A DNA stretch of 33,794 nt. Source: an uncultured bacterium. GTDB lineage: Bacteria; Electryoneota; Electryoneia; Electryoneales; Electryoneaceae. The position numbers were made by a program, and so were the translations under genes. The DNA is taken from positions 1 through 33,794 of the forward strand of contig CAJVXH010000016.1 in assembly GCA_913009835.1 (NCBI GenBank), in the 5' to 3' direction. Positions 13,014-28,603 of this stretch are shown one piece after another (positions within the stretch are counted from its first letter, which is position 1; the number at the start of each line of letters is the position of its first letter). The notes under the pieces were generated by a model. The model searched no databases. It was not told the DNA's origin and worked only from the letters and a program-made list of their open reading frames with translations.

Positions 13014-13041
13014 GGAGTCTGGAGTTGGGAGTCAGGAGCAA
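13014..13041. repeat. Heptanucleotide array, GGAGTCN unit, 4 copies
   Basis: GGAGTCT, GGAGTTG, GGAGTCA and GGAGCAA follow at an exact 7-bp period just 5' of uvrC. AAAGACAGG follows directly, and a GGCCCGTGCTTG hairpin lies about 25 bases further on. This is the same order as in the arrays at 16580 (reverse) and 24091. Confidence 0.65.
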
Positions 13042-13074
13042 AAGACAGGTAAGAAAAACCAGTTGTGAAAATAC

Positions 13075-13108
13075 AGGCCCGTGCTTGCTCGTCAAGCGCG
13101 GATTATCC
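13075..13108 (+). repeat. Interspersed hairpin element, copy 1
   Basis: AGGCCCGTGCTTG, loop CTCGT, CAAGCGCGGATTATCC. The stem CGTGCTTG/CAAGCGCG has 8 pairs with one G-T wobble. At least four more copies or variants occur in the window, always in intergenic DNA, so this is a REP-like family. Confidence 0.75.
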
Positions 13109-16535: not shown

Positions 16536-16569
16536 GGATGATCCGCGCTTGACGAGCAAGCACGGGCCT
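16536..16569 (-). repeat. Interspersed hairpin element, copy 2 (inverted)
   Basis: This is the reverse complement of the 13075 element: on the minus strand AGGCCCGTGCTTG, CTCGT, CAAGCGCGGATCATCC. It is joined on its other side by AGAAGAT and then a heptamer array. Copies 1 and 2 form an inverted pair around the Asp-box and small secreted-protein genes. Confidence 0.75.
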
Positions 16570-16579
16570 ATCTTCTCCC

Positions 16580-16614
16580 GACTCAAGTCTCAGGACTCAA
16601 GACTCAGGACTTCT
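16580..16614. repeat. Heptanucleotide array, GACTCAR unit, 5 copies
   Basis: The units GACTCAA, GTCTCAG, GACTCAA, GACTCAG and GACTTCT keep an exact 7-bp period. The array ends at the base next to the stop codon of the giant C25 gene (16615). Confidence 0.75.
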
Positions 16615-19600
16615 TTATTTCAGCAGCATAATCTTCTGACGGTTCATCTGCTGCCCATATTGCACCTGCAGGAAGTAGACACCGCTGGAAATTCCCTTGT
16701 CCGGACTGAACAGGAATTGGTGACGTCCAGCATCCATATTCTTGGTAACCGACATAACCTGCTGACCGAGTACGTTGTAAACGGCGAAGGTGACTTTGCC
16801 CGTCTGCGGCAGAGCGTATGGAATCGTAATCGTCGGGTTGAACGGGTTCGGATAACCAGAACCGACCTCGAATTCAGTCGGCAGTGCGGCAGAACGAACT
16901 ACCAATTCCGCATGCGAACCTTGACCGAATACCAAGTCATCACCAACCAGCTCCGTTTCCAGAACTGAACCAGACCCATCCAGCACCCGAACGTCGAGAC
17001 TCGAACCTTCACCGAATCCAGCGATCTGCGACTCAGTATCACCCTTCCAGGCGACGATGATCGCGTCATCACGTTCCGGAAGCATATATCCAGAGCCGAC
17101 AACCGTCTGACCATCAAGGATCTCGATCACATCGACATCCATCTCCTGCATATCCTCATGCAGGGTCAGATGCACCAGGTAGGGCATACCTGACGGATCC
17201 GGTGCATTCGGTGCAACTGGCAATTCGGTGATCATCTGCTCGGTTGGTTGTCCAGCGAGCATCATACTGCTGCTGTATGCCCAGTTGACATTCGCATCAA
17301 CATAGACCTGGAGACCATCGCCTGGCGTCATGCTACCGATGGTATTTACACCCATATCCGGCCAGTAAATATCACCATCATCGTTCATGACAATGTTGAG
17401 ATTGGCAGCAATCGGGCTGAATGCCACGCTGACCGCAACCGGCGTTACAAAAGGTTGTCCGACCCAGTTCCACTGGTCCGCGGTGGCGCTGTACATCGTT
17501 GAAGGATTCAACTCGTCACCGTTGAAAACAAAGTTTTGCGCGGTATCAGTGTAGAAGCGATATCCTTCAGTCTGATCAATGTCGCCAATCGTATTGATAG
17601 CATGACTCGGCCAGTAAACGCCGCCGTCATCATCATAGACAATTTCCAGATCGGTGACAGACGCGAATACCTGATCTACAGCCAAGTCCAGAAGTGTTAC
17701 CGGGAAGGAAACCAGCTCGAATCGTCCACCCGCAACCGGAACAGAAATAATACCTGAACCCACCGTGAAGGTGGCGTCATCGCTGCCAGAGGCCATCATC
17801 GGGTTGGTAGCTGTAAAGGTGATTGTTTCAGAACCAATCCACGCCGGTGAAGGCGGAGTGATGGTCGCGACACGGTTCACGATACCAACGGTGAGATCAA
17901 CCTGACCCGTAGCTTCCCAGGTCAATTGATTGTCAGGATAATTCGGATCGGAAACGTAATCATCCAGATTGATCGTGGTGAAACTCTGACCCGGATCAAT
18001 TGACTGGTTAGGAATGTCGGTGACTATCGGCGGCTGGAAGGCATTACCAACGTACATGGCAACCGGAATGTCAGTGGATGGATGATCCTGATCGTTGGTG
18101 GCGACATTCACCGTTCCTTCGTAAATACCGTCTGGCAGGCCATCGCCGTCAAACGCTATCCGAGCGTCTGTGGATTCGCCCGGTTGCAGCAATCCGACTG
18201 TATCCAGAGCTTCAAACCATGTCGTCACCACCGAATAGCGGATAGCCAGATCATCCTCAACGTAAGTACCGTTATATACCGACGTCAGGCCGATAGTGCC
18301 GCCATCATTCTGCATACCAATTGTGGCAGAAGTAATGTCTACGGTGCCCATGTTAGCAAATTGGAAAACAATCGATCCATCGCCATGCAGCAACATCTGG
18401 AAACGATACTGTCCATTTCCACCATAACCGCCAATGTCGTAGTAGGTGATAACGGCAAGATCGCTGTTGTTGGTGTAGAAATAGATCGTGCCGCCCTGAC
18501 CCAGATCGAGGTCATCCCAGAACGGGGCAATCATCGATGCTGGCGGGTTGATCGGAGCCGAAGTGCTCGGCAATGCCTCATTACTGTAGGAGCCAGAGGC
18601 GGTCTGTCCCGAAGCAAATGTCAGGAAACCGTTGGTGTTAATGTAGACGTTGGTGTAGGTGACACCATAATACTCAAAGCTGAAACCAAGCGACCGAGCT
18701 GAGAAATAGCCGTCATCGCCACCACCATTGACAATGTCGCCTAATGGAAGAGCCGTGCCGTAGTTGCTGTGCCAGCTATATGTCGGACCACCAAGCTCGT
18801 TGCTATCAATCCATGAATAACCGTAGCTGTCAGGACCGCCGAGGTCATCGGTGCTGTTTCCACCACCGTTGTTATCCTTCAAATTATCGAGATCAATCGT
18901 GCGGGATTCTCCGGCAGCTTCCAGCTCCTTCTGACGCTGATACTCGTCCGGATCAACCGAGACTACTTCGGCTTGAGGTGTGTCAACCGATTCAGCGGGC
19001 AAGCCAACAGAAGCACGACGTTCTGCACTCTCAACCACGTTGTCAATTTCGGTGATGCTCCAATATACGTTGCCTTCAGCACCAACATTGGCAATGTGAA
19101 CGTTCTCAATGACAACTTGACCATCATATGGAACATTGATCTCAGCAGGAGTGATCTCAACTTCAGGATCTACTCCACCAAATCCACCAGACAAATCGTC
19201 GGCAAACACAATTGCGGTACCACCACTGATCGAGGAAGTATTATCACCATACATGCCCCAGTACAACCACTGGATACCATCATCCTGGTTCGGGCTTTCA
19301 ATACCGACCGTGCAAAGGTCGTTATCAGTGCCTGCACTACTCTCCTGTGAGAATGACTGGTATTGGAATTTGATCACACCATTCCCGGATGCAGTCGGCC
19401 ATAGCGCTGGATTGTAGAGGATGATCTGGAATACCTGAGAAGCACCGGTATAACGAGTCTGGCAATTCCACTGAACTGTATAGGTGCCATTGCCAACGTC
19501 ATAATAACCGTAGACACCACCACCTGTAGTAAGCAAGTCATCCCAGTTGGCGGCAAGCATCGCAGGAGGACCAGTCGGGCTCGGAATCGGCCAGTTCCTG

Positions 19601-22464
19601 AAGTTGTAAAGATCGTTTGAATCAAGCGAAATCGTGCCGTTGCTGTTAACTGTCATCACGCTGTAGAGTCCACCATAATACCCGAACACGAATGGAAGGT
19701 TGACCACCGTGCCATCATCGTCCTCGTTGGATGTATCAGAAATCCCCAGGTTATTACCTGGTGTCGAGATGTCCAGCCACACATAATCTGCATTCACACC
19801 ATAACCGCCGTCAATATTACTCAATGCCCAGTAACCATAGTTGTCTGGACCGGTAACGCCGTTGGCGGCTGGATCGCTGACAAAAACCCGGTAGGTTGTT
19901 GAGTCGCGGCCATTATCCTCATCCTCAATCACCAGCTTGAATTCTATCGGCATGCCTGGCCAGGCATCTGCTGTCGCTGTGATCGAGAATGGATCGCCAC
20001 TGTTAGATCCAACGCCGTTTGCCGGTACATCCGGATAGTTCGCTACGCCATCATTGATCGTTATGTTAGGAGTGGTCGTAGTGAGGGTTCCTGTAGCTCC
20101 GCTGACAGTGATGTCACCGAGGTTCGTCCAGGGAACCGCCATGTAGGCGGTCTCATCTGGATCAAGCTGACCGTCCCCTCCGAAAACCACGACCTGTGAA
20201 CCAGCCGCAACTGTGAAACCATAGACTGTCAACTGAGCATCCGAAACCTGATTCGCACCCACAGTAACTGTCAGTTCGGGGGTCATTCCATTCGGAGTGT
20301 TCGGGGAAACCGTAACCGAAACCGCGTCAGTAACGGTGGTCGAACCACCTGACGCCAGTGCCGGAACGGCAAAGGTATTCCCACCCACTATGGTGAGGTA
20401 AGGACTGCTCGTTGTCACTGTTGCTGTCTGGGAACCCACCGACGTCGAACCACCATTACGCATGGTCATATCAAGTGCAACAGTCTCACCAGGATTGGCA
20501 AGGTTGTCATCGCCAGCGCCATCATCGACCACTGTCGACTGAACATATACGTAATCCGCTGCCGTGCTCACTGTAATAGTAGCCTGGTAAGGGACCACGT
20601 TATCACCAACGACTGTCAGTGTCATCGAAGTTTCAACATCACTCGGATCGAACATCAAACGAATTGAACCCGAAGCGTCAATCCGATGCGTTGAAAGAAC
20701 CTCATCTCCATCGGCGAGAGTCGCCCAGATAAGTTCCGGCCAGTCACCTGGATGGTTTACATCAACATCGAGGTAGTTCTGACCCCAGTTGATAGCAGAA
20801 TCGTGAGTGACTACGATTTCATCCGGAACTCCAACCCAGGCACGTAGTGTCGGATCACCCATCAAATTGTTCCAATAGCTGAACCAATGAATGTTGGGAT
20901 CGCCCTGACTCGTACCCGTATAACCCTCATACAGGCGAAACTTACCGAGGTTCAAGGCCCAACCGAGGGAACGGATATTCCGCATGGTCATAGCCTCATA
21001 TATTCCAGAAACTACGACATTGTTGCATCGCGTGTTGGTGTGACTTGTACAAGTTCCAATCGCCGCGACACCACCCCGGAATGTGTTTCCACCTGAACCC
21101 GCGCGAAGGAAACCTTCCGTGAACTCTGTGGTCTCTGTGCCGAAATTCCCTGTGGAACAGGTAAGAATTGTGACGATAGGCAATCGTGAATCGTTGTTCA
21201 TTTGATCCAGGTAGGAGTTTGACCAACCGTTCATCCCGATATAGCCACGGTAATTGTGGAAGCTGATGCCTGCGTTAAAGGCATCCACTGTAGCCTCGGA
21301 AAAATTTCCTCCCATGGTATACCAGAGAGTATCAGAGTCAATGCTATACACATCGAGCATTTTCATAATCGCGCGATTTGTCATAATCGTGCTGATCCCA
21401 GAGGTAGAGGAACCAGCCTGCATATCAGCCTGGCTCAACCATGATGTATCGGTCATGTAGACATCGCGCTCATACGCAAGCGTCTTGTTTACCACACGGG
21501 CGAGTTCTGTGTTGCCATCCTGGACGGAGAAACGTCCTATTGCCAGATCAGCGATAAGGTCGCCGCCTTCCATCATCGTATAGGGATGATCAGTGTAGCA
21601 AGTCTGCCCGGAGTAGCTGTCGTAAGTGGCAGCCATATCACATGAGCCGTTGTGATCACCAACCAGCAACACGTATTCCAGCGGAATCGGATGGCCATTG
21701 TTGTAAGAGTTGCTAATGAGCGTGTTGATCGCCGAAGAGGAGCTCGTGCTGGTCGGATGACCAATCTCGACCACATATCCCTGCTGACGCTTCCACTGAA
21801 CGTAAGGCTCTATCCTGGTCATGAAAGTGGCGTTGTTCTCTATCACCACCAGGAGACGACCGACCGGCGCGACCTCGTTGACGTTGATCTCGTCAATGTT
21901 CATCACCATGCCACGAATTGTACGCGCCATCTCGGAAGAAACTGCAAACGGTTCCACACTGCCCTCGGCACGATCATCTTCACCTGCAAACTCCACCTCG
22001 AGATGCAAATCATTGGCGATCATGATCTCACCATCAGCGGCTACCCGAGCCGGAAGGACCGTTATTGGGAAAAGCCTGATACCCTTGAAAACGACAGGGT
22101 CACCGACTTCAACGCTCTCAAGAGTTCCCGCAAGTTCTTCAGCATATAGACCTGTGCCGACATACTCTGTTGCGTTTATCTGAGCCACAACACCCAGACC
22201 GTTCGGGACAACAATCATCGTCGTCGTACTAGGTAATGGCGACCCATTTGGAAGAAAGCCAGGGATGCTGATATAGCTACCTTGGTCATCCGTAACGAAT
22301 TCAACCATCGGTACTGATACCTGAGCTCGAACACCAGTCATGGTGCTCTCTACATTCTGCCATACCTGGGCAGATTGAGAGTCTAACGGTGCTGAAGCAA
22401 ATCCCAGCGAAACCATAATCAGAAGCAGGAAAGTCGTTCCCAAAGCAATCCCATGCCGATGCAT
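16615..22464 (-). CDS. Giant gingipain-family (C25) protein with T9SS sorting domain
   Basis: This exported protein has 1949 residues. The signal peptide (MHRHGIALGTTFLLLIMVSLGF) is followed by a propeptide-like region to ~200. A C25 domain spans ~205-545 (RLLVVIENNATF, YVLLVGD, DLAIGRFS, ILTCSTGNF, MGDPTLRAWVG). Cys436 lies at the gingipain nucleophile position. The paired G-H-G site reads NYRGYIG, with Tyr408, so activity is uncertain. Next come CARDB/Ig-like domains (to ~865) and two related beta-sandwiches starting PDNYGYW and PDSYGYSW. The second interrupts an Ig-like domain after a charged linker (YQRQKELEAAGES). Further Ig-like domains precede a sorting domain (GYPNPFNPTI, SGVYFLQV, KIMLLK). 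The track start is a TTG. The ATG at 22464 has GGAGG 7 bases upstream. Likely a surface peptidase or adhesin. Confidence 0.88.
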   Translation of the reverse strand: MHRHGIALGTTFLLLIMVSLGFASAPLDSQSAQVWQNVESTMTGVRAQVSVPMVEFVTDDQGSYISIPGFLPNGSPLPSTTTMIVVPNGLGVVAQINATEYVGTGLYAEELAGTLESVEVGDPVVFKGIRLFPITVLPARVAADGEIMIANDLHLEVEFAGEDDRAEGSVEPFAVSSEMARTIRGMVMNIDEINVNEVAPVGRLLVVIENNATFMTRIEPYVQWKRQQGYVVEIGHPTSTSSSSAINTLISNSYNNGHPIPLEYVLLVGDHNGSCDMAATYDSYSGQTCYTDHPYTMMEGGDLIADLAIGRFSVQDGNTELARVVNKTLAYERDVYMTDTSWLSQADMQAGSSTSGISTIMTNRAIMKMLDVYSIDSDTLWYTMGGNFSEATVDAFNAGISFHNYRGYIGMNGWSNSYLDQMNNDSRLPIVTILTCSTGNFGTETTEFTEGFLRAGSGGNTFRGGVAAIGTCTSHTNTRCNNVVVSGIYEAMTMRNIRSLGWALNLGKFRLYEGYTGTSQGDPNIHWFSYWNNLMGDPTLRAWVGVPDEIVVTHDSAINWGQNYLDVDVNHPGDWPELIWATLADGDEVLSTHRIDASGSIRLMFDPSDVETSMTLTVVGDNVVPYQATITVSTAADYVYVQSTVVDDGAGDDNLANPGETVALDMTMRNGGSTSVGSQTATVTTSSPYLTIVGGNTFAVPALASGGSTTVTDAVSVTVSPNTPNGMTPELTVTVGANQVSDAQLTVYGFTVAAGSQVVVFGGDGQLDPDETAYMAVPWTNLGDITVSGATGTLTTTTPNITINDGVANYPDVPANGVGSNSGDPFSITATADAWPGMPIEFKLVIEDEDNGRDSTTYRVFVSDPAANGVTGPDNYGYWALSNIDGGYGVNADYVWLDISTPGNNLGISDTSNEDDDGTVVNLPFVFGYYGGLYSVMTVNSNGTISLDSNDLYNFRNWPIPSPTGPPAMLAANWDDLLTTGGGVYGYYDVGNGTYTVQWNCQTRYTGASQVFQIILYNPALWPTASGNGVIKFQYQSFSQESSAGTDNDLCTVGIESPNQDDGIQWLYWGMYGDNTSSISGGTAIVFADDLSGGFGGVDPEVEITPAEINVPYDGQVVIENVHIANVGAEGNVYWSITEIDNVVESAERRASVGLPAESVDTPQAEVVSVDPDEYQRQKELEAAGESRTIDLDNLKDNNGGGNSTDDLGGPDSYGYSWIDSNELGGPTYSWHSNYGTALPLGDIVNGGGDDGYFSARSLGFSFEYYGVTYTNVYINTNGFLTFASGQTASGSYSNEALPSTSAPINPPASMIAPFWDDLDLGQGGTIYFYTNNSDLAVITYYDIGGYGGNGQYRFQMLLHGDGSIVFQFANMGTVDITSATIGMQNDGGTIGLTSVYNGTYVEDDLAIRYSVVTTWFEALDTVGLLQPGESTDARIAFDGDGLPDGIYEGTVNVATNDQDHPSTDIPVAMYVGNAFQPPIVTDIPNQSIDPGQSFTTINLDDYVSDPNYPDNQLTWEATGQVDLTVGIVNRVATITPPSPAWIGSETITFTATNPMMASGSDDATFTVGSGIISVPVAGGRFELVSFPVTLLDLAVDQVFASVTDLEIVYDDDGGVYWPSHAINTIGDIDQTEGYRFYTDTAQNFVFNGDELNPSTMYSATADQWNWVGQPFVTPVAVSVAFSPIAANLNIVMNDDGDIYWPDMGVNTIGSMTPGDGLQVYVDANVNWAYSSSMMLAGQPTEQMITELPVAPNAPDPSGMPYLVHLTLHEDMQEMDVDVIEILDGQTVVGSGYMLPERDDAIIVAWKGDTESQIAGFGEGSSLDVRVLDGSGSVLETELVGDDLVFGQGSHAELVVRSAALPTEFEVGSGYPNPFNPTITIPYALPQTGKVTFAVYNVLGQQVMSVTKNMDAGRHQFLFSPDKGISSGVYFLQVQYGQQMNRQKIMLLK

Positions 22465-22915
22465 TCTGTATCCTCCTAAAGCCAAACTGATCAATGTCTC
22501 TCACAATCCGTTGCCAGCGCCTTAATTCTAACACTGCAACCGATCTGCGGAAACTATTCAAGTTTTTCGTGTTCTTGGGTTTCAAAGCCACTACACCCGG
22601 AGCAATTACGAAAGTAGGTAATTTTGAACGCTAAATGAAGTGCTAGCGCTAATATTCCCAAAATAAAGTGAGTAGATCGGAGCTATTAGTTTCGAGATCG
22701 TGATTTCCAGTCCACTTCCACGAGAATAATACCAATTCCTCGAAAAATGCCTGAATCATATAATGCGAAAAACATAGATATAGATTACTGATACAATATA
22801 CTTTCAGACCCACTTTCCCGCTTGAACATTAATAGCTGAGAAAGGCAAGGACACATGATTTCCATGTGTCCTCACGGCCTTAGTTCAGAAAAAGTGGCTC
22901 CGTTTCAGCTCTACC
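22465..22915. other. Upstream region of the C25 gene
   Basis: These 451 bases hold no gene. They are AT-rich near 22745-22800 and contain one strong hairpin (22842-22881) near the SUMF1 gene stop. I see no clear promoter match. Confidence 0.5.
22842..22881 (-). terminator. Hairpin downstream of the SUMF1 lipoprotein gene
   Basis: AGGACACATG pairs perfectly with CATGTGTCCT around ATTTC, and an outer AAGGC/GCCTT pair extends the stem across a small internal loop. On the minus strand it starts 34 bases past the stop codon and is followed by TTTCTC. It is a probable but weak intrinsic terminator. Confidence 0.55.
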
Positions 22916-24090: not shown

Positions 24091-24222
24091 CTATAGGAAA
24101 AGATAGGCTATAGACTATAGGAAAAGATAGGCTATAGGCTATAGGAAAAGATAGGCTATAGGCTATAGGAAAGACAGGCTATAGGCTATAGGAAAGACAG
24201 GCTATAGGCTATAGGAAAGACA
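24091..24222. repeat. Heptamer-based array, GGCTATA units with AAARGAYA spacers
   Basis: A partial unit is followed by two 24-base units (GGCTATARRCTATAGGAAAAGATA) and three 23-base units (GGCTATAGGCTATAGGAAAGACA). Each is two 7-mers plus a GGAAARGAYA linker. The last linker runs straight into a GGCCCGTGCTTG hairpin. The array starts 5 bases from the ATG of the SUMF1 gene. Confidence 0.9.
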
Positions 24223-24253
24223 GGCCCGTGCTTGCTTGCAAGCGCGGATCACC
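24222..24253 (+). repeat. Interspersed hairpin element, copy 3
   Basis: AGGCCCGTGCTTGCTTGCAAGCGCGGATCACC directly continues the GGCTATA array. It is the same family as copies 1 and 2 with a shortened loop. Confidence 0.75.
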
Positions 24254-24294
24254 CATCGTATGTCAGCTGCGTTGGCGGAGCCAACATGGGCAAG

Positions 24295-24336
24295 AATCAG
24301 AAATCAGCAGTCAGTAATCAGTATTCAGTGATCAGC
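24295..24336. repeat. Heptanucleotide array, AATCAGT unit, 6 copies
   Basis: AATCAGA, AATCAGC, AGTCAGT, AATCAGT, ATTCAGT and GATCAGC follow at an exact 7-bp period. The last unit joins hairpin copy 4. Confidence 0.8.
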
Positions 24337-24363
24337 CGCGCTTGACGAGCAAGCACGGGCCTG
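24337..24363 (-). repeat. Interspersed hairpin element, copy 4 (inverted)
   Basis: On the minus strand it reads CAGGCCCGTGCTTG, CTCGT, CAAGCGCGG. It is inverted relative to copy 3, 85 bases away, so the two could pair into a larger cruciform. Confidence 0.75.
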
Positions 24364-24372
24364 TCAGTCTCC

Positions 24373-24386
24373 GCAGCCAGCAGCCA
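24373..24386. repeat. Heptamer duplication, GCAGCCA x2
   Basis: There are two exact copies of GCAGCCA at 7-bp spacing, 10 bases past hairpin copy 4. On the minus strand the order is repeat, then GGAGACTGACAGG, then hairpin, as at other composite sites. It is short on its own. Confidence 0.5.
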
Positions 24387-24482
24387 TGAATATAACCTCT
24401 CAGCTCGCTACTAACCATCTCCAGATCGTAATTGACATCAAATTTCAGATCGGCTATCTGATCCTAACCTATCGACTGACAG

Positions 24483-24705: not shown

Positions 24706-24743
24706 CGTGAAAATGCTCATAAGCACACTCCTTGGGGGAGGAC

Positions 24744-26855
24744 ATGAGACAAAACCCACATCTTTCGCTTGCGATTGTCTTTGCTATCCTGTTATTGGCA
24801 TTGCCAGCAACAATGGTCGCGACACCGCTGCATCCAGAGACACTGGAGCTCGTTCAATCGGGACAAATCCCACCACCATATGCCTATGAACATTCCGTCG
24901 AATTGCATCAGATGGGCGTCGACGCGCCGATGCCTGTTTCCTTAGCTGGTGGAGCTCTGGACGTATACGCATTCAACTCCATCGTTCTGCTGGCACAATT
25001 CGCCGATAAACCGGCCATGACGCCACCCCCATTATATGACAACCTGATATTCTCTAACACGCCAGGGACACTTTACGATTATTTCCAGGAAGTGAGTTAC
25101 GGAGAATTCCAACTGGTCACTAGTGATTTCCCCAGCATGACCAATTGGCTGCCCATGCCGCAACTCTATTCATGGTACGTCAACGGCCAAAATGGCCTCG
25201 GTACGTATCCGCAAAACTGTCAGAAGATGGTTGAGGACGCCGTGGCAGCAGCAGATCCCATGGTCAACTTCGCCCAGTATGACCACGATGGAAACGGATC
25301 TGTCGATGGCCTGGTCCTGGTCCACTCTGGTACGGATGCCGCATGGTCGGGGTCAAATAACGATGTCTGGTCACACGCCTGGACGCTGCCTGCACCGTTC
25401 TGGACAGCCGACGGTGTCTACATCTCCACTTATTGCACAGTCCCGGAATTCTATAACGTCTCCGGCGACCTGACACCCGGTGTTATCGCGCATGAGATGG
25501 GACACGCTGTTCTCGGCCTGCCCGACCTATACGATACCGATTACAGTTCGATGGGGCTCGGATATTGGAGCTTGATGTCATACGGAATGTGGAATGGACC
25601 CATGCTGATGGGGGGATCACCAGCTCACTTGGATGCCTGGTCAAGGATTCAAGCCACCTTCGCCGCACCTGAGAACGTGATTCAGGATATGCCAGGTTTC
25701 CTCATCATGCCAGTAGAGCAAACCCCGCACATCATGAGGCTGTGGACCAACGGGATGTATGGAAACGAGTATTTCCTGGTTGAGAACCGTCAACCGTTCG
25801 GCTTCGACACATGGTTGCCAGGGGCGGAATTGCTCATCTACCACATCGATGACAATGTGACGACCTGGAACAACAACGAATGGTATCCGGGATACACCGC
25901 GAACGGCCATTATCGCATTGCAATTGAACAAGCTGACGCGATGTGGCACCTGGAGCAAAACGTGAACATGGGCGACCCGACAGATCCCTGGCCAGGCGCA
26001 CTGGGAGTGCCGTCCTTCGACCAGATCAGCTGGCCTAACAGCAATGATTACAACGGAAACGTTACAAACGTCGGCTGCGCGAACATGATGTCAATGCCAC
26101 CCACTGTTGGAGTTGATCTGCTGGTAGGCAATCCCATACCGCCATTTCAGCCAGCTTGGATCAACATTATCCCTCACACCTACCCAATCTTCATTCCAGT
26201 TGGAGGGGGATCATTCGGCTATGACATCCACATCTACAATAGTATTCCCGTGTCGAGATCCGGTCAGTTATGGTGGGAAGCCATTTTGCCCAACGGTAAC
26301 ACCTATTACATCGGGCGCCAGAACATCACAATCCAACCTGGACTCCCCTGGTCGAGCTTTAACCGGACCCAGAACATACCGGGGTGGGCACCGAATGGGG
26401 CATACCAGTTCGTCTGCAATGTCGGATACTATCCGGGTTTCATCGCTACAACTGCCATGATCCCATTTACCAAACAGGCATTGGTTGCCGATGGCGGTGA
26501 AATCGTTGAAGAATGGTCGATGGATATTCCCGACGACGAAAACGTCTACATTGAGTCCGCCGAACCGTTCGGACAGGATATGATGCTGCCAACTGAGTTC
26601 GCTGTCAGCGAGGCATGGCCTAATCCGTTCAACGCCGAAACCCAGATCTCGGTGTCATTGCCGGTCGCTACTGAAATCGTCGCGACGGTCTACAACACCC
26701 TGGGACAAAAGGTCGCAGTCATGGCTGATGGAGTTTTCCAAGCCGGTGATCACACGCTGACATTCTACGCTTCAGACCTTACCAGCGGAATGTATTTGCT
26801 AAACATTCGCACCGAAACAGAGAGCTTCACACGTAAACTGGTGCTGATGAAGTAG
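24744..26855 (+). CDS. M6-family (immune inhibitor A-like) metallopeptidase with T9SS sorting domain
   Basis: This 703-residue secreted zinc peptidase has a signal peptide (MRQNPHLSLAIVFAILLLAL). The M6 catalytic domain shows YDYFQEVSYGEF, a DHDGNGSVDG calcium-binding-like loop, the zinc motif HEMGHAVLGLPDLYD (His250, Glu251, His254 with downstream Asp261) and SLMSYGMW as a Met-turn region. A C-terminal catalytic-domain extension follows (YFLVENRQPFGFD, LIYHIDDN). The shared ~105-residue module (INIIPHT ... GYYPGF ... PFTKQ) and a T9SS sorting domain (AWPNPFNAET, SGMYLLNI, KLVLMK) complete it. The track start is a TTG at 24732. I prefer the ATG at 24744, preceded by GGGGGAGG, though the 2-base spacing is tight. 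It is the only substantial plus-strand gene, and repeat arrays lie on both sides. Its stop codon joins one of them. Confidence 0.92.
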   Translation: MRQNPHLSLAIVFAILLLALPATMVATPLHPETLELVQSGQIPPPYAYEHSVELHQMGVDAPMPVSLAGGALDVYAFNSIVLLAQFADKPAMTPPPLYDNLIFSNTPGTLYDYFQEVSYGEFQLVTSDFPSMTNWLPMPQLYSWYVNGQNGLGTYPQNCQKMVEDAVAAADPMVNFAQYDHDGNGSVDGLVLVHSGTDAAWSGSNNDVWSHAWTLPAPFWTADGVYISTYCTVPEFYNVSGDLTPGVIAHEMGHAVLGLPDLYDTDYSSMGLGYWSLMSYGMWNGPMLMGGSPAHLDAWSRIQATFAAPENVIQDMPGFLIMPVEQTPHIMRLWTNGMYGNEYFLVENRQPFGFDTWLPGAELLIYHIDDNVTTWNNNEWYPGYTANGHYRIAIEQADAMWHLEQNVNMGDPTDPWPGALGVPSFDQISWPNSNDYNGNVTNVGCANMMSMPPTVGVDLLVGNPIPPFQPAWINIIPHTYPIFIPVGGGSFGYDIHIYNSIPVSRSGQLWWEAILPNGNTYYIGRQNITIQPGLPWSSFNRTQNIPGWAPNGAYQFVCNVGYYPGFIATTAMIPFTKQALVADGGEIVEEWSMDIPDDENVYIESAEPFGQDMMLPTEFAVSEAWPNPFNAETQISVSLPVATEIVATVYNTLGQKVAVMADGVFQAGDHTLTFYASDLTSGMYLLNIRTETESFTRKLVLMK

Positions 26856-26982
26856 GCCATAGGCCATAGGCCATAGGCCATAGGCCATAGGCCATAGGCC
26901 ATAGGCCATAGGCCATAGGCCATAGGCCATAGGCCATAGGCCATAGGCCATAGGCCATAGGCCATAGGCCATAGGCCATAGG
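26853..26982. repeat. Heptanucleotide array, GGCCATA unit, ~18 copies
   Basis: About 18 near-perfect 7-bp units run for ~129 bases from the TAG stop codon of the M6 gene. They are followed by GGAAAAGACA and then a TGCCACGGAC hairpin. Because 7 is not a multiple of 3, all three minus frames read the same peptide heptad (YGLWPMA). That accounts for two spurious ORFs in the track. Confidence 0.95.
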
Positions 26983-27001
26983 AAAAGACACAAACATCAA
27001 C

Positions 27002-27025
27002 TGCCACGGACTGAAGTCCGTGGCA
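27002..27025. repeat. Hairpin, TGCCACGGAC/GTCCGTGGCA family
   Basis: A perfect 10-bp stem surrounds loop TGAA and is followed on the plus strand by a GTATTTTTCT tract. The arms match the copy at 16486 exactly. On the plus strand it could act as a terminator for the M6 gene, and the T-tract supports this. Confidence 0.75.
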
Positions 27026-27034
27026 GGTATTTTT

Positions 27035-27052
27035 CTCCAGACTCCAGACTCA
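27035..27052. repeat. Heptamer array, CTCCAGA unit, overlapping the ppx stop
   Basis: CTCCAGA, CTCCAGA and CTCA keep a 7-bp period. The last partial unit includes the TGA stop codon of the minus-strand ppx gene (27050-27052). Confidence 0.55.
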
Positions 27053-28603
27053 ATGTCGCAAATTTACGAGCTTCAGCGTGTATCCAACCTCCAGCCAGCG
27101 CTCCTGCTCACGTGCCAACTGACGCGCAACCAATGGATGCTCATGCAACCAACCCGGTTGAAATTCGGCTTCAAATCCGCTTTGTACGACTCGTAAAGCG
27201 CGCACCGGATCCTCTATAGAAGTGCGTTTTCTGTTCAGAGCCCATGCCATTCGGAACAGGAACAGCAACGGCATCGGGACGGCATCTTCCACCTTCAGTC
27301 GATCCAGTTTAATCCGCTTTCGATGATTCAGCACCAGAAAGGCGAGGTGTCCCTGTTCCTCACGAGTAAAACCTGGGAAATCACTGTTCCTGATCAAGTA
27401 TGTGCCATGCTTGTGGTAACTGGAATAGTTGATCGTCAGACCTATTTCATGGAGATCAGCAGCCCAGCGAAGAAGACGTTTCGGTGAACACAAGGAGCTG
27501 GGCAGATCCAGACGGATTTCGTCAAGATGCGCCGCAGCGAAATCGTAAACCCTGTCCCTCTGGAGTCGATCTACTTTGTGCCGATCCATCAAACGAGTGA
27601 GTGTCGCTATTCTACGATCTTTCCCGTCAGGAACCATCATCATATCGTGAAGAATACCCTGGCGCAACCCAGCCTTGGTGATGCGAATCCTATCCAGCTC
27701 AAACGTTTTCATTATCCCTGTCAGCAAAGCGAGGGCACCGGGGAATGAAGCCACACGCTCTTCGGGTAATCCTGCTCTGATAAAACTGTTCGTCTTGTTC
27801 TTGATAAACATCTTTGTGAGATTCTTCAGTGGTTTGAGTTCAATCCCGCCTGACCCCAACTCCATTTGTTCTATCAGAGAAGCGACCAACCGCATGGTAC
27901 CCGACGCACCGAGCACAACCTCAAACGACTCGCGACAGTCATAGACCTTGGTCGCACACAAAGCTTCAGCCACATCCGCAACTGTCGCCTTGAAAAGATC
28001 TGCGGTCAACTCCCGACCCTCGAAAACATTCCTGGTCAGGCTGATATTCCCCAGAGCTACGCTGTCTATGCAGACTGGCGAACGACCCTCACCGTAGATA
28101 AATTCCGTCGATCCGCCGCCAATATCTATTATGAATCGTTTCCGCTCCTGCGGAGCATCTTCGCTGATGATGCCCAGATAAATGAGACGCGCCTCTTCTT
28201 CTCCAGAGATAATGTCAATCGGAAAGCCAAGTGCTGCCTCGGACTCTCGGAATAGCTGCGAATCCCGACGCAATTGGCGAAAGGCGCTGGTACCAATCAC
28301 TCTAACATTCCCGGACGAAAAACCGGTGATTCGTTCTCCATACCGACGCAATACCAACAACACTTCTTCGCGTTTGCTGGGCTCAATAATACCGTCCGGC
28401 AGAAGGCCATCAACCAGTTTCGTGACCTCACGATGGTGATCCATATGCCGCCACTCACCATCGAGAACCCGGATGACGTGCAGGTGAAAGCTGTTCGAAC
28501 CGAGATCGACAATGGCGTATTCGTGACGGAGATCGTCTGGCGTAGTTTTAAGGTCCGTTGAATTCGCCTTCGGTTTACCGGATGTGTCCTGCCCAGGTTT
28601 CAC
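27050..28603 (-). CDS. ppx: Exopolyphosphatase / pppGpp phosphatase (Ppx/GppA family)
   Basis: Ppx/GppA enzymes hydrolyse polyphosphate from chain ends or pppGpp to ppGpp, in the cytoplasm. At 517 residues it has the usual length. Visible are the ASKHA phosphate-1 motif (IVDLGSNSFHL, ~31-41), GTSAFRQ (~104), ISGEEEARLIYLG (~132-144, with the family's catalytic glutamate), DIGGGSTEF (~160-168) and GASGTMRLVA. A C-terminal HD-like helical region (LLRWAADLHEIGLTINYSSYHKHGTYLI) follows. It starts with a GTG that lies 29 bases inside the 3' end of ppk, which implies translational coupling. The Shine-Dalgarno is weak. Pairing with ppk favours a polyphosphate role over strict GppA function. Its stop codon lies within a short heptamer repeat. 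Confidence 0.93.
   Translation of the reverse strand: MKPGQDTSGKPKANSTDLKTTPDDLRHEYAIVDLGSNSFHLHVIRVLDGEWRHMDHHREVTKLVDGLLPDGIIEPSKREEVLLVLRRYGERITGFSSGNVRVIGTSAFRQLRRDSQLFRESEAALGFPIDIISGEEEARLIYLGIISEDAPQERKRFIIDIGGGSTEFIYGEGRSPVCIDSVALGNISLTRNVFEGRELTADLFKATVADVAEALCATKVYDCRESFEVVLGASGTMRLVASLIEQMELGSGGIELKPLKNLTKMFIKNKTNSFIRAGLPEERVASFPGALALLTGIMKTFELDRIRITKAGLRQGILHDMMMVPDGKDRRIATLTRLMDRHKVDRLQRDRVYDFAAAHLDEIRLDLPSSLCSPKRLLRWAADLHEIGLTINYSSYHKHGTYLIRNSDFPGFTREEQGHLAFLVLNHRKRIKLDRLKVEDAVPMPLLFLFRMAWALNRKRTSIEDPVRALRVVQSGFEAEFQPGWLHEHPLVARQLAREQERWLEVGYTLKLVNLRH

Follow-up and report, generated by a model that had tools for sequence, protein, structure and literature searches.

Intergenic stem-loops present in high copy and preceded by a short 5' tag are known as REP or REPtron elements, which are associated with RAYT proteins (TnpA-REP), IS200/IS605-like single-strand transposases (PMC3116915, PMC3733652, PMC8266576). 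The hairpin described here resembles these systems in its occurrence both singly and in inverted pairs, its location near gene 3' ends and its presence on the flanks of a RAYT. However, its tag is ACAGG rather than GTAG or CGTC, its tail, ATNATCC, is conserved, and its cognate RAYT comes from a relative, none having been found in the hairpin's own genome. Heptamer repeats of the GGGAATC and GGGGAYT types have been described in Xanthomonas and Nostoc (Rehm et al. 2015, PMC4692102). The arrays of the present genome share with them the 7-base unit, the intergenic location near the 5' neighbouring ORF on either strand and the overlap with stop codons, and with those of Xanthomonas also the inward-facing pairs and the polarity relative to gene edges (PMC4692102). 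Unlike them, they comprise many units, mostly not of the G-quadruplex type (GAGTCCT, GAGCTGT, GGCTATA), and are accompanied by an A-rich exit and neighbouring REPs. The TAACTGA direct repeats of marine Beggiatoaceae (PMC4679880) are likewise intergenic heptamers with a patchy distribution across phyla, but consist of one fixed unit located mostly upstream of start codons, whereas here many units are found, mostly after stops.

The window, i.e. the whole stretch of 33,794 nucleotides that was analysed, is contig 16 of a Calditrichota-like 3.59-Mb, 264-contig genome with a completeness of 86% (G000). Stretches of this genome totalling 903 kb were used and compared with 60 other genomes. Sequence at about ten contig ends (e.g. 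L048, L055, L063, L066 and L071) is presumably Illumina sequencing adapter, a contamination of the assembly. A scan of the window against Rfam 15 at the gathering score produced 0 matches, i.e. no known structured RNA.

The features of the relevant loci are listed in Table 1. The initial annotation had described a heptamer array leading through an AAARGAYAGG linker into a hairpin, and this order was confirmed by direct reading on the minus strand at 16612-16543. The array at 26853-26982 is, as had been reported, followed by the linker GGAAAAGACA and a different hairpin, CCACGGACT...AGTCCGTGG. At 24091 the order is real as far as ACAGG and CCCGTGCTTG, but the array is compound, with a period of 23/24 bp, and not a plain heptamer; because its unit consists of (GGCTATA)2 followed by GGAAA(A)GAYA, the 'linker' is itself repeated within the array. 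Two REPs, inverted relative to each other, are found in the locus at 24091-24365; each has an array on its outer flank, and the space between them holds an ATCAGT-type array. At 13014 both the array and the hairpin are present, but the linker AAAAGACAGG is located 28 nt away and the hairpin stands behind its own ATACAGG. The annotated linker is two joined things, an A-rich array exit and the ACAGG tag of the REP.

Table 1. Arrays, array exits and hairpins at the four loci of the window.
Feature	Position	Strand	Details and basis
Compound tandem array	24091-24225	+	23/24-bp unit (GGCTATA)2GGAAA(A)GAYA, 5.8 copies
REP 1 tag ACAGG	24220-24224	+	direct reading and conservation profile
REP 1 hairpin CCCGTGCTTGCTTGCAAGCGCGG	24225-24247	+	stem 24226-24234 / 24239-24247; pattern search, folding
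Imperfect heptamer array, ATCAGTA type, between both inverted REPs	24295-24336	-	strand is the one with GATTACT-type units
REP 2, inverted	24336-24364	-	hairpin 24336-24359, tag ACAGG 24360-24364; pattern search, folding
Short degenerate array, GGCTGCT type, outside REP 2, inward-reading	24369-24388	-	by eye
Degenerate heptamer array GGAGTCN	13014-13039	+	direct reading
A-rich array exit AAAAGACAGG	13040-13049	+	28 nt before hairpin; direct reading
REP: tag ACAGG and hairpin	13073-13101	+	pattern search, folding
Heptamer array GAGTCCT/GAGTCTT	16580-16612	-	begins just past stop codon of minus-strand ORF 16615-22494
REP: tag ATAGG (16567-16571) and hairpin	16543-16571	-	motif search, folding
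Perfect GGCCATA array, 18.6 copies	26853-26982	+	first unit overlaps TAG stop of ORF 24732-26855
A-rich array exit GGAAAAGACA	26981-26990	+	direct reading
Different hairpin GCCACGGACTGAAGTCCGTGGC	27003-27024	+	direct reading, folding
Short inward array GAGTCTG	27035-27051	-	beside stop of minus-strand ORF 27050-28603

ACAGG, a 9-bp stem-loop and ATNATCC make up the unit of the hairpin, which is a REP. Its copies are short palindromes, present in high copy and intergenic: the exact pattern CAGGCCCGTGYTTGCN{3,7}AARCGCGG occurs 143 times in the genome compared with 0 for the reversed control, and CCCGTGCTTG is found in 117 exact copies versus 3 for its reversed control. Alignment of 108 non-redundant copies revealed that conservation sets in sharply at ACAGG, five bases before CCCGTG, with 1.1-1.9 bits at positions -5 to -1 and no more than 0.25 bits at positions -6 to -40, while past the stem the tail ATNATCC is conserved. 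Since conservation stops at ACAGG, the REP does not extend into the AAARGA portion of the linker. Single-strand folding yields a stem of 9 bp, one pair of which covaries, being C-G in 72 of the 108 copies, T-A in 33 and mismatched in 3. The tag has the form NNAGG, with the variants ACAGG (73 of 108), TCAGG (15), ATAGG (11), GCAGG (3) and TTAGG (2). The GTAG and CGTC tags of the REP super-families (PMC3733652) are absent, the tags here being ACAGG, TCAGG and ATAGG, and the ACAGG-tagged hairpin represents a new REP family with a non-GTAG tag. It is present in 3 of 61 genomes (that of the window and 60 others), and a Calditrichaeota MAG is among the nearest hairpin-bearing relatives. Mosaics of several REP types, 220-290 bp in length, are also dispersed at many places in G000 (e.g. 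L050:16059-16282, L056:5548-5770 and L214:1568-1790), the best copies sharing 90-97% identity.

Assignment of the hairpin to a RAYT system, as initially proposed, is supported by the same-family genome G003, in which the RAYT at L239 carries the identical 23-nt hairpin core on both its 5' and 3' flanks, in inverted orientation; the hairpin is therefore a REP with a RAYT lineage. A second RAYT of this genome (L227), scoring above the NCBIfam REP-transposase cut-off, is flanked by ACAGGCCCGCGGTTGCTTGCAACCGCGG. In the window's own genome, 86% complete, none of the RAYT matches is accompanied by the ACAGG-tagged REP, and four of its RAYTs carry other REPs, of the CAGACAT, CCTGCGGG, GTAGCCCGG and CCTGTGA types. 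One own-genome RAYT, L246 (G000:C13:24819-25295), is flanked by a GCCCCTGTGA...TTCGCAGGG REP; it was missed by the Pfam model and was found with a relative as query and with the NCBIfam model. At L221:1400-2600 (contig 112) of G000, a 192-aa ORF of unknown function lies between two tandem clusters of the ACAGG-tagged REP with a period of about 47 bases, at the expected position of a RAYT.

The arrays belong to a known class, tandem heptamer repeats located at gene edges. Period 7 is in excess, with 51 arrays in 772 kb as opposed to 4-19 for lags 4-13, and twenty different units were seen among the perfect arrays. Arrays matching TGAGNNN are present in 32 of the 61 genomes, and several lineages have a favoured unit of their own. 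By eye, G-quadruplex-type GGG tracts are absent from common units such as GAGTCCT and GGCTATA, GGGCTCG arrays being an exception. The idea that the heptamers serve as three-frame stop codons was rejected, stop codons being absent from units such as GGGCTCG and GGACTGC. Dependence of the arrays on RAYTs is also not supported, as the numbers of the two are uncorrelated within the phylum (rho -0.05).

The arrays have a distinct polarity. In four genomes, with the array strand assigned via a word-count rule and ORFs called by a crude rule of length alone, genes lie closer to the 5' end of the G-rich strand in 58 arrays and closer to its 3' end in 20 (p = 2e-5); the median gene distance in G000 is 24 bp for the array 5' end versus 233 bp for the 3' end. 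Arrays begin no more than some tens of bases from a start or stop codon, many of them at stop codons, and run into intergenic space, where their exit is frequently A-rich, as in GAAAAGACA. Any of several hairpins may come next; the exit GAAAAGACA also precedes the CCACGGACT hairpin. Among loci of genome G019 that were chosen for containing TGAG arrays (L142-L161), GAGTTAT arrays with one altered unit adjoin PNPFN, a motif of T9SS-type C-terminal domains, and appear to lie within coding sequence.

Most copies of the hairpin lack adjacent arrays, the very outcome that the initial annotation had named as speaking against its proposal. Under a strict cut, a clear heptamer array is located within 80 bp on the 5' side of 18 of the 108 REPs and on the 3' side of 14, and on neither side of 78; with the loosest cut used, 64 REPs are still without an array. 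Moreover, arrays adjoin other REP families and an unrelated hairpin and are common in genomes without the ACAGG-tagged REP, and the proposal of a defined element in which only the repeats vary is not supported. Co-location is nevertheless statistically real: 11 of the 29 intergenic regions with an ACAGG-tagged REP contain an array, 2.7 times the length-stratified expectation of 4.0. By the same length-stratified comparison, REPs of the GCCCCTGn type have 11 array regions versus 3.2 expected and the ACGGACT hairpin 6 versus 1.1, while the AGGATGAC repeat shows no like excess (5 versus 3.8). The association of REPs and arrays exceeds the prediction from gene-edge placement alone. Synteny with the same-genus genome G001 comprised 31 reciprocal best hits, none of which had a clean boundary between an array-present and an array-absent state. 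At L187, L207, L212, L046 and L042, tandem duplications of 6-17 bases stop exactly at the REP tag, and some of them contain the first half of the REP stem.

Thus, two known repeat classes form a mosaic at the loci of the window; their co-location is real but incomplete, and they do not make up a fixed composite element. It is probable that REPs and gene-edge heptamer arrays are independent of each other and occupy the same intergenic niche.

As an alternative, arrays near REPs might be by-products of REP processing, whereby a RAYT nick next to the tag or a replication fork stalled at the hairpin lets the 5' flank slip and duplicate in tandem, steps of 7 bases being favoured. Such an origin would accord with the tandem duplications of periods other than 7, which are concentrated at the REP 5' edge (13 of 108 copies versus 1 of 108 at the 3' edge, p = 0.0013, an asymmetry to which clustered REPs may have contributed a few copies) and some of which include the half-stem CAGGCCCGTG. 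In other species, RAYT nicking is established to take place at dinucleotides next to the REP, guided by the tag in at least one case (PMC8266576); the tail of the present REP ends in CC and, judging from its sequence, would fit a GG-containing guide. However, the majority of arrays lie in regions without the ACAGG-tagged REP; they are also found on the 3' side of REPs, and the absence of a correlation between array and RAYT numbers argues in the same direction. Processing by-products are a possible but doubtful source of the arrays near REPs.

It is rather unlikely that the arrays function as RNA 3'-end structures, in which inward arrays would pair into long stems between convergent genes and insulate or stabilise the transcripts. 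Neighbouring array pairs are inward in 13 cases, outward in 3 and in the same direction in 6, many arrays start at stop codons, and the same arrangement has been published for the GGGAATC repeats of Xanthomonas (PMC4692102). Most arrays, however, are single, and the partner arrays in the window, GGCCATA and GAGTCTG, differ in sequence.

Pure coincidence of two intergenic repeat types appears unlikely and is disfavoured: both types are intergenic and REP-holding regions tend to be long, but the excess persists under length stratification for the ACAGG-tagged REP, the GCCCCTGn REPs and the ACGGACT hairpin alike.

A single composite mobile element, with array, linker and hairpin transposed jointly and the array subsequently diverging in sequence and length, is very improbable and largely refuted. 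The same order recurs at several loci, arrays are over-represented in REP regions, and a compound 23-bp array accompanies a REP twice, the array at 24091 having a homologous counterpart at L061:10118-10250. Nevertheless, most REPs are without a clear array, conservation ends at ACAGG, arrays occur on both sides of REPs and beside other hairpins, and RAYT-flanking REPs were seen without arrays. There is similarly little probability that inward arrays with their A-rich exit form the end modules of an as yet undescribed system, either an intergenic element or a boundary, common to Calditrichota, Xanthomonas and cyanobacteria. In such a system, a dedicated activity would determine both the polarity and the step of 7 bases, and REPs would preferentially insert behind the arrays.

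In the reading with two independent repeat classes, the REP would be a single-strand element of the non-autonomous kind, for which a RAYT provides the copying activity in trans; RAYT cleavage may disperse it as single-strand DNA in the window's genome. The arrays would probably grow by slipped-strand synthesis in 7-base steps, and stalling at the hairpin or nicking beside the tag may promote slippage, leading to the excess co-location.

A little-studied lineage has thus yielded a clean family of REPs, with a tag other than GTAG, and the cognate RAYT. With Xanthomonas-like array polarity seen in four genomes, the origin of heptamer repeats in bacteria becomes a single, common question. As tandem duplications cluster on the tagged side of the REP, it can be tested whether RAYT nicking is linked to the expansion of repeats.
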